A stretch of DNA of 64,000 nucleotides from NCBI RefSeq assembly GCF_039542905.1, contig NZ_BAABIS010000001.1:2728001-2792000 (forward strand). Reading direction: 5' to 3'. This DNA comes from Kitasatospora terrestris. GTDB lineage: Bacteria > Actinomycetota > Actinomycetes > Streptomycetales > Streptomycetaceae. The notes under the pieces were generated by a model. It was not told the DNA's origin. It saw only the letters and a list, made by a program, of their open reading frames with translations, and did no database searches. A program made the position numbers and the translations under genes. Of this stretch, positions 48,334 to 54,024 are shown piece by piece. Each line of letters begins with the position of its first letter. The first letter of the stretch is position 1.

Positions 48334-51312
<2,979 letters not shown>

Positions 51313-51414: not shown

Positions 51415-52707
51415 TCAGCTCCGGGCGGGAACCTCCAGGGCGACCGTCAGTGGACGATCGGCAACGCTCCGGCCGGCCTCGACCGTGCACGTTCCGGGCC
51501 TGGTGACCCAGCCGCCGAGGGTCTCGTCCCAGGTCTGCACGGTCCTGACCGACAGCTGCAGCCGTGCGGCGGCCACCTCGCCGGGGCCGGCCTCGACCAC
51601 CGCGAATCCGGCCAACTGCCGGTCGGGGCGCGAGCGGTCCACGCCGTCCGGCGCCAGGTAGACCTGGACCACCTCGCGGCCGGCCCGCCGCCCGGTGTTG
51701 CGCACCCGCACGCACACCTCCGCGAGGGTGTCCTCGGGCCCGCCGAGGGGCCCGCCGAGCCGGACCTCCAGCCCCTCGTAGGCCCACTGGGTGTAGCCCA
51801 GGCCGGCGCCGAACCAGTACGCGGGCTGCGCGCCGGACCGCCGCTGCCAGGCCCGGTAGCCGATGAACAGGCCCTCCCGGTAGGCGAGCCGGCCCTCGGT
51901 CGGGGCGACCTCCCAGACCGGGCAGTCGGCCTCCTCGGCCGGCCAGGTGGTGGGCAGCCGGCCGCCCGGCTCGACGACGCCCAGCAGCACGTCGGCCAGC
52001 GCCGCGCCGCCCTGCTGGCCGGGGAACCAGGCCAGCAGCACCGCCGCGACCTGCCCCCGCCACGGCATCAGCACCGGCGCGCCGGCGTTGACCACCACCA
52101 CGGTGCGCGGGTTGGCGGCCGCGACCCGGGCCACCAGCTCGTCCTGCCGGCCGGGCAGCGCCAGCGAGTCGCGGTCCACGCCCTCGCTCTCCACCTCCTC
52201 GGTGGTGCCGACCACGACCACCGCCACCTCGGCGGCGCGGGCGGCGGCCACCGCCTCCTCGATCAGCTCGTCGGGGCCCGGGCCGGGCGCGCCGTGGCCG
52301 AGTTGGAAGGAGACCAGACCGAATCCGGCCAGTCCGGTGTGCTCCGGCAGCACGCAGGTCAGCCGGACCTGCCGCAGCGCCGCGAAGTCCACGCCGCCGG
52401 GCAGCGTCCCCAGCCAGTGCACCGAGCCGTCGGCGGTGGCCGCCGTGCCCAGCGGCTCGCCGTCCGCCCCGAGCAGCTGGGCACGGCCGGGGAAGGCCGC
52501 CGGGGGCAGGAAGGTCCGCGGGTCGGCGCCGGGCGCGTGGCGCAGTTCCGTGCCCGCGCCGAGCGCCTCGCGCAGCCCCTCCAGCGGGGAGACCACCCGC
52601 TCCGGGAAGACCTGGGCGCTGCCGCCTCCGCCGAACCGCAGCTCGGCCGCGGCCGGGCCGATCAGCGCCACCGAGGCGGGCGCCGGGTCGAGCGGCAGGA
52701 CGCCGCC
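51415..52707 (-). pseudogene. 3' remnant of a GH3 beta-glucosidase gene
   Basis: The frame encodes only the C-terminal part of a GH3 enzyme: GGVLPLDPAPASVALIGPAA, then VESEGVDRDSLALPGRQDEL, AAANPRTVVVVNAGAPV, GGRLPTTWP and YWFGAGLGYTQW, and a final Fn3-like domain. The N-terminal TIM-barrel with the nucleophile Asp is absent. About 430 residues remain of an expected 750-850. Similarity stops at about 52707, exactly where a truncated LacI-type frame begins on the other strand. No start codon with a sensible context exists there. Confidence 0.8.
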
Positions 52708-52992
52708 GTGCTCTGCTTCGAACCGCTGCTCACCCCCGCCGGCGTGGAGCTGCTGCACCGGGCCGGCACCCGGGCGGTCGCCACGGTCGGCGCCGACGAC
52801 CTGATGCTGGCCCGGCTGCTGCGCCCCCGGCTCACCACCGTCCACATGAGCCTGCCGGCCGGCGAGGAGCTCGCCGAGCTGGTCGACCGGCTGATCTCCG
52901 ACCCGGTCGCCGAGCCGGTCGCCGACCCGGTCGCCGAGCCGGTCTCCCGCGAGCTGATGACGGTCCGCCTGGTGGTCCGCGACTCCGGCTGA
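52702..52992 (+). pseudogene. 3' remnant of a LacI-family regulator gene
   Basis: The plus frame gives AAVLCFEPLLTPAGVELLHR, then VATVGADDLMLARLLRPRL, TTVHMSLPAGEELAELVDRL and a final LMTVRLVVRDSG. This is the C-terminal 95 residues of a LacI/GntR-sugar regulator (ligand domain end, LTTV and LVVRDS motifs). The HTH and most of the ligand domain are missing. It joins the truncated GH3 remnant head to head. VAEPVADPVAEPV is a short repeat of 21 nt near the end. Confidence 0.78.
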
Positions 52993-53013: not shown

Positions 53014-53045
53014 GAGGCCCGGCGGGTGGTCACCCGCCGGGCCTC
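53014..53045. terminator. Terminator next to era
   Basis: GAGGCCCGGCGGGTG and CACCCGCCGGGCCTC form a perfect 15-bp stem with a GT loop, 13 nt after the era stop and 21 nt after the LacI remnant. Confidence 0.85.
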
Positions 53046-53058
53046 GACGGACGCTCCG

Positions 53059-53988
53059 TCAGAATCCGAGCTTGCGCAGCTGCTTGGGGTCGCGCTGCCA
53101 GTCCTTGGCGACCTTGACGTGCAGGTCCAGGTAGACCGGGGTGCCGAGCAGCGCCTCGATGTGCTTGCGGGCGGTGGTGCCGACGTGCTTCAGGCGCGAG
53201 CCCTTGGCGCCGATCACGATCGCCTTCTGGCTCTGCCGCTCGATGTAGACGTTGGCGTGGATGTCCAGCAGCGGACGGTCGGCCGGGCGGCCCTCGCGCG
53301 GGATCATCTCCTCGACCACCACCGCCAGCGAGTGCGGCAGCTCGTCGCGGACGCCCTCCAGCGCGGCCTCGCGGATCAGCTCGGCGACCATGATCTGCTC
53401 GGGCTCGTCGGTCAGATCGCCGTCCGGGTAGAGGGGCATGCCCTCCGGGAGCAGCTTGGTGATCAGCTCGCCGACCAGCTCGACCTGCTTGTCGCCGACC
53501 GCCGAGACCGGGATGATCTCCGCCCACTCGATGCCCAGCTCGGCGCCCAGCTGGTGGACGGCGATCAGCTGCTCGGCCAGCCGCTTGGAGTCGACCAGGT
53601 CGGTCTTGGTGACGATGGCGACCTTGGGGGTCTTCTTGATCTCGGCGAGCTCCTTGGCGATGAACTTGTCGCCGGGGCCGAGCTTCTGGTCGGCGGGCAG
53701 GCAGAAGCCGATCACGTCGACCTCGGCCCAGGTGGAGCGGACCAGGTCGTTGAGCCGCTCGCCGAGGAGCGTGCGGGGCTTGTGCAGGCCGGGGGTGTCC
53801 ACCAGGACGAGCTGCGCGTCGGGGCGGTGGACGATGCCCCGGACGGTGTGCCGGGTGGTCTGCGGGCGGTCGGAGGTGATCGCGACCTTCGTCCCGACCA
53901 GGGCGTTGGTCAGGGTCGACTTACCCGCGTTGGGACGGCCGACGAAGCACGCGAACCCGGAGCGGTACGGGGAGGAAGGACTACTCAT
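53059..53988 (-). CDS. era: GTPase Era
   Basis: The 309-aa protein assists 16S rRNA and 30S maturation. The G domain has GRPNAGKSTLTNAL (G1), DRPQTTRHTVRG (switch I), VDTPGLHKP (G3) and TKTDLV (G4). The C-terminal KH domain has YIERQSQKAIVIGAKGSRLK. The ATG at 53988 is preferred since GGGAG is about 10 nt upstream; one at 53997 would be too close to it. It is the last gene of the rRNA-maturation set on this strand. Confidence 0.96.
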   Translation of the reverse strand: MSSPSSPYRSGFACFVGRPNAGKSTLTNALVGTKVAITSDRPQTTRHTVRGIVHRPDAQLVLVDTPGLHKPRTLLGERLNDLVRSTWAEVDVIGFCLPADQKLGPGDKFIAKELAEIKKTPKVAIVTKTDLVDSKRLAEQLIAVHQLGAELGIEWAEIIPVSAVGDKQVELVGELITKLLPEGMPLYPDGDLTDEPEQIMVAELIREAALEGVRDELPHSLAVVVEEMIPREGRPADRPLLDIHANVYIERQSQKAIVIGAKGSRLKHVGTTARKHIEALLGTPVYLDLHVKVAKDWQRDPKQLRKLGF

Positions 53989-54024
53989 GGGCACCATTCT
54001 CCCTGATCACCGACGCCCGGCCGG

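Follow-up and report, generated by a model that had tools for sequence, protein, structure and literature searches.

In Kitasatospora terrestris, two gene fragments meet head to head between era and a gene of the Emfourin family: on the minus strand the C-terminal portion of a GH3 glycosidase, and on the plus strand pieces of a LacI-family regulator. The window, the whole 64,000-nucleotide stretch that was analysed, covers positions 2,728,001-2,792,000 of the first contig of a genome of 8.57 Mb assembled in 2 contigs. Features of the locus, numbered from the first base of the window, are collected in Table 1.

Table 1. Genes, remnants and joins at the era locus of the window.
Feature	Position	Strand	Remarks
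Emfourin-family gene (PF20242)	50464..50781	+	other flank
Deletion D site (inferred)	50732..50916	.	12.6-15.8 kb block of G030/G065 absent here
GH3 glycosidase remnant	51415..52707	-	PF01915 and PF14310 present; N-terminal domain, start codon and promoter region gone
Join of deletion A, in GH3	52360..52368	.	in frame; seen against G030 and L085
Join of deletion B (GCCGCC)	52702..52707	.	GH3 middle fused head to head with LacI middle
LacI-family regulator remnant	52702..52992	+	two effector-binding-domain pieces; HTH and N-terminal half gone
Join of deletion C, in LacI	52776..52779	.	in frame; seen against G030 and L085
12-base tandem repeat, 6.2 copies	52871..52944	+	in LacI stump near 3' end
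era GTPase	53059..53997	-	intact conserved flank anchoring the locus

The GH3 stump matches the C-terminal domain model PF01915 over profile positions 9-200 of 200 (E 1.7e-55) and the Fn3-like model PF14310 (E 1.6e-16), and a profile search of the frame at 51415-52707 gives no match to the N-terminal domain PF00933, which is found at E 3.6e-39 in the intact GH3 of the genus genome G030. The GH3 nucleophile sits in that N-terminal domain. No stop or frameshift occurs across the 430 codons of the stump. For the LacI stump, 124 codons are missing inside and only the last part of the Peripla_BP_3 profile is matched (E 2e-4, at 21.9 bits against a cut-off of 26.5); the LacI HTH model PF00356, found at E 1.3e-15 in the intact G030 regulator, is absent from 52702-52992 by profile search. 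An earlier note on this DNA had read the two frames as C-terminal ones, the GH3 frame ending near 52707 and the LacI-type frame starting near 52702, each without its N-terminal half from a single point. Both assignments are confirmed, and so, at the DNA level, is the common point, where homology to G030 ends exactly at 52707 on the GH3 side and restarts at 52702 on the LacI side. By eye, the tandem repeat of the LacI stump is missing from the LacI genes of G030 and G065, and a GC-rich inverted repeat at 53014-53045, between the LacI stump and the era stop, looks terminator-like.

Three missing segments, each seen against two independent references, were delimited by comparison with G030 and with Streptacidiphilus jeojiense NRRL B-24555 (L085). 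Deletion B, at the head-to-head junction, amounts to about 3530 bp relative to the four-gene form in G030 and about 1.5 kb relative to the two-gene form in Streptacidiphilus. Deletion A removes 201 bp (67 codons) from the GH3 stump relative to G030 and 207 bp relative to L085, and deletion C removes 372 bp (124 codons) from the LacI stump, a length equal against both references; each keeps the frame. The proposal that a single deletion had crossed a divergent pair holds in that the promoter region and both 5' ends were removed, and fails in that at least three separate segments are missing, not one clean cut. The large within-gene deletions examined, namely A, C and one in G005, are all in frame, though the genes are otherwise broken; the chance of this is about 1 in 27. 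In-phase repeats may be favoured by codon-periodic composition.

At join A a 9-base run, CAGCCGGAC, is found in G030 at both ends of the segment missing here, and at join B six bases, GCCGCC, are common to both stumps. Overlap by chance has a probability of about 0.04 for at least 4 bases, 0.006 for at least 6 and 0.0003 for at least 9, so that a chance overlap as long as that at join B, though rare, cannot be neglected. The GCCGCC suggested earlier as microhomology does occur in G030, G065 and G073 on the GH3 side; in each of these genomes the LacI side has GCGGCG instead. Judging from these sequences a six-base microhomology at join B is possible; we reject it as proof of mechanism, because the relatives stand in for the ancestor and their LacI side differs from GCCGCC at two bases.

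Intact counterparts were sought with the GH3 stump in 70 genomes of the genus, of which eight, the window's own counted, have a match at E <= 1e-100. Gene surroundings were compared for G030, G065, G073, G024 and G002, the further copies being those of G091 and G075. In G065 and G073 the GH3 match is found next to era, the same place as in the window, and in G030 the module lies 25 kb away from era. Gene order in these three genomes, given in the orientation of the window, is GH3 (-), alpha/beta hydrolase (-), MFS transporter (-), LacI (+), era (-), with protein families profiled in the G030 copies only. The unit thus holds two genes, the transporter and the hydrolase, beyond the plain pair. 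Such a plain pair, an intact LacI gene adjacent to and divergent from an intact GH3 gene, for which the earlier note had proposed a search in related genomes, is present at the same locus in Streptacidiphilus jeojiense, where it is flanked on one side by era and on the other by an Emfourin-like gene, an M4-type protease (so labelled from its translation) and leuA. Since the divergent LacI/GH3 unit occurs at the era locus in two genera, parsimony points to a loss in the lineage of the window.

Other candidates were set aside. The LacI / MFS - GH3 unit of G024 was rejected as a counterpart at the era locus, lying at 0.5 Mb with era at 2.96 Mb, and in G002 an MFS - GH3 unit stands at a contig end with era on another contig. 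Streptomyces diastatochromogenes (L114), considered as a decayed copy on the strength of a weaker E-value, was dropped; the window matches it inside GH3 only, with none in the flanks. A DNA search matched 60 of 61 genomes, nearly all of the matches shown being short and GC-rich, and only those to G030, G024 and G002 were used.

The fragments in the window are very probably a pair of deletion pseudogenes descended from a divergent LacI / GH3 unit. In the ancestor, a LacI-family regulator would have stood divergent from a GH3 beta-glucosidase unit, between era and the Emfourin gene, the GH3 side consisting either of GH3 alone or of MFS transporter, alpha/beta hydrolase and GH3. The main deletion, from mid-GH3 to mid-LacI, would have taken the promoter region, both starts and everything between, leaving two stumps head to head. 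Two more deletions, in an order that we infer, would have taken 67-69 codons out of the GH3 stump and 124 codons out of the LacI stump, and the stumps would now be without function. Illegitimate joining over short repeats is the proposed mechanism, and the joins could have been made by NHEJ or by slippage between short repeats, both being possible. The genome carries two Ku genes, so end joining is available, and NHEJ as described for Streptomyces, in the portion of Hoff et al. 2018 (PMC5869714) considered here, is a plausible maker of such joins.

An alternative that we hold to be very unlikely is that the GH3 stump now encodes a functional, exapted C-terminal protein, whose start would fall within antisense LacI sequence. 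The frame is indeed open to 52845 and beyond, giving 476 aa from a GTG at 52845 and 547 aa from stop to stop, and both internal deletions are in frame. Such a protein, however, would have lost the GH3 N-terminal domain, start and promoter region, and its added N-terminal part would be antisense LacI. At E <= 1e-100 the 70 genomes yield seven further matches, all in open frames of 859-1296 aa, so no second truncated form is seen at this cut-off, which would miss short remnants like that of G079 (below). Codon evolution was examined with a branch model coded for this analysis, using the window and seven full-length relatives and 416 of the 430 codons after gapped columns were dropped. Omega for the GH3 stump is 0.149 on the window branch against 0.116 in the background (likelihood ratio test, p 0.38), with a profile within 1.92 log units of 0.10-0.24, its upper edge falling just under 0.27 (approximate 95% range 0.09-0.27). 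An omega of 1 on the window branch is rejected (lnL -6027.8 vs -6016.0), and an omega of 0.15, not elevated, is what an exapted protein might show. The branch codon test, intended to reveal decay, did not reveal it (p 0.38), and it is noisy, since the branches of G030 (p 6.6e-5), G002 (p 0.0097), G091 (p 0.018) and G073 (p 0.075) all deviate more strongly from the background than that of the window. Sites invariant in the seven relatives but changed in the window number 8 of 218, an uninformative count given that the other seven sequences have 2 to 15.

Codon evolution of the stump thus looks still constrained. If the stump is assumed to be neutral now, this constraint implies that the loss was recent; the constraint is compatible with recent loss, and continued selection on the stump would look no different. 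Under a simple mixture with neutrality assumed since loss, the neutral time is at most about 17% of the branch, from (0.27-0.116)/(1-0.116), with a point estimate of about 4%. The description of the junction as a datable scar is accordingly sound as far as an upper bound on age, about 17% of the branch, and goes no further than that bound, which itself assumes neutrality since loss.

The era locus was also surveyed in other members of the genus. At E <= 1e-150, era is found in 69 of the 70 genomes (the window's own counted), the exception being G061. The stretch adjacent to era was compared in 65 loci besides those of the window, G030, G065 and G073, counting matches above 30 bits; six of the 65 stretches end at contig ends (L118, L121, L122, L135, L170 and L173), and for L127 and L135, which give no Emfourin match, the whole stretch was used. 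Of the 65 loci, 40 match neither the module proteins nor orf51, a small frame following GH3. Hydrolase alone is matched in 18, hydrolase with orf51 in two, orf51 alone in three, LacI pieces in one (G005), and pieces of GH3 and LacI with orf51 in one (G079). In 20 of the 65 loci (for example L139, L142 and L155) the hydrolase stands 34-147 bp from era with none of GH3, MFS and LacI present; a lone alpha/beta hydrolase could be either the oldest gene of the unit or one selectively kept.

G079 has the end of GH3 fused head to head with a LacI piece, the alignments overlapping by 8 bases. The ends of this join differ from those in the window, and about 5.1 kb is missing relative to G030. G079 has LacI sequence absent from the window and lacks GH3 sequence present there; since each keeps sequence that the other lost, neither remnant can derive from the other, and a common first deletion, later enlarged in G079, is possible. 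In G005 about 600 bp are gone from inside LacI, in frame relative to G065, and a separate small loss breaks the frame. A tree of leuA plus era, read without support values and with deep nodes not relied on, places the window as sister to G026 and puts G079 and G005 in other clades. In G026 the Emfourin gene lies 45 bp from era, with no module sequence between.

These comparisons bear on the possibility that the joins are an artefact of sequencing or assembly, with GC-rich segments dropped. The joins are read from the assembly, and several missing pieces lie close to one another, as such an error might produce. The genome, however, is assembled in just 2 contigs, the three joins are separate and two of them are in frame, and a similar head-to-head join appears in the assembly of another species, G079, so that we consider an artefact highly improbable. 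That the stumps are fragments inserted by a partial acquisition, and so not left over from genes that once stood here, is barely credible: related units elsewhere in G024 and on another contig in G002 suggest that the unit may move, but era, the LacI 3' end, the GH3 3' end and the downstream sequence agree in order and orientation with G065, G073 and G030, and the era-LacI-GH3-Emfourin order in a second genus, Streptacidiphilus, strongly disfavours this reading.

G065 and G030 carry a block, of 15.8 kb and 12.6 kb respectively, between Emfourin and the sequence that follows GH3; the window lacks it. From their translations, we take its genes to encode PstB-, PstA- and PstC-like proteins and phosphate-binding proteins, presumably a Pst-like phosphate-type ABC transporter. 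Emfourin-era spacing is 17.0 kb in G014 and 16.0 kb in G024, G079 retains about 540 bp from the end of the block, and in Streptacidiphilus Emfourin is the next gene after GH3. Deletion of this block (D) in the window lineage is likely, though less certain than deletions A to C.

Emfourin is a protease inhibitor, and the Emfourin-family gene of the window is the only PF20242 match found in the genome. In Streptacidiphilus an M4-type protease (L085:9881-11263) adjoins its counterpart; no such neighbour is present in the window, and of the 12 Peptidase_M4 matches in the genome none falls within the window. The gene looks like that of an orphan protease inhibitor.

Taken across the genus, the survey invites a broader conjecture, which we regard as doubtful and offer tentatively: that the LacI / (MFS - hydrolase) - GH3 module at the era locus was lost repeatedly and in parallel, via unrelated internal deletions that twice gave a head-to-head GH3::LacI arrangement and spared the hydrolase in 20 of 65 loci, and that selection, not only drift, strips the plant-glucoside-use unit and keeps one gene. 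The series of parallel remnants at one locus is a useful set of natural replicates that deserves a second look. Two genera hold intact forms, and partial remnants and bare loci occur as well, with era as the anchor throughout; the series provides a worked example of a sugar-use unit dying in a large actinobacterial genome. With more strains it could be tested directly in which order, at what size and in which frame successive deletions fell, and what became of the regulator as against the enzyme. For annotation it carries a warning: automated gene calling could report a 476-aa C-terminal GH3 protein at this place, most likely a dead one. Among the matches listed in the open-access literature none is a paper on this locus, which says little.

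For the lost function, the nearest solved structure by sequence to the intact G030 GH3 is BcpE2 of Streptomyces scabiei (PDB 7PJJ), aligned over residues 20-835 of 840 at E 8.4e-283 and described, in the part of PMC9426481 drawn on here, as a promiscuous GH3 beta-glucosidase. Given this closeness, the lost unit most likely served the regulated uptake and hydrolysis of plant-type beta-glucosides. Three other stump-related loci, at 37-40% identity, remain in the window genome, so general glycoside use need not be lost. The segment removed by deletion A aligns to BcpE2 chain positions of roughly 455-520 (a hand count on the alignment), around F499, a residue assigned in that paper to the PA14 domain. 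Unlike BcpE2, the window copy has no N-terminal domain and is unlikely to be active as a GH3 enzyme. By that paper's account the search for the regulator of bcpE2 orthologues was still under way, and the word LacI is absent from its main text.

Deletional decay of bacterial pseudogenes is already well known: Kuo and Ochman 2010 (PMC2916853) describe how deletions eliminate inactivated bacterial genes, young pseudogenes vanishing quickly. The present case is ordinary gene loss, unusually well documented. It resembles the decay described there in that at least three deletions have built up, the GH3 stump staying free of stops and frameshifts, and differs in its material, which there is drawn from Salmonella genomes and here from species of one actinobacterial genus at one locus.
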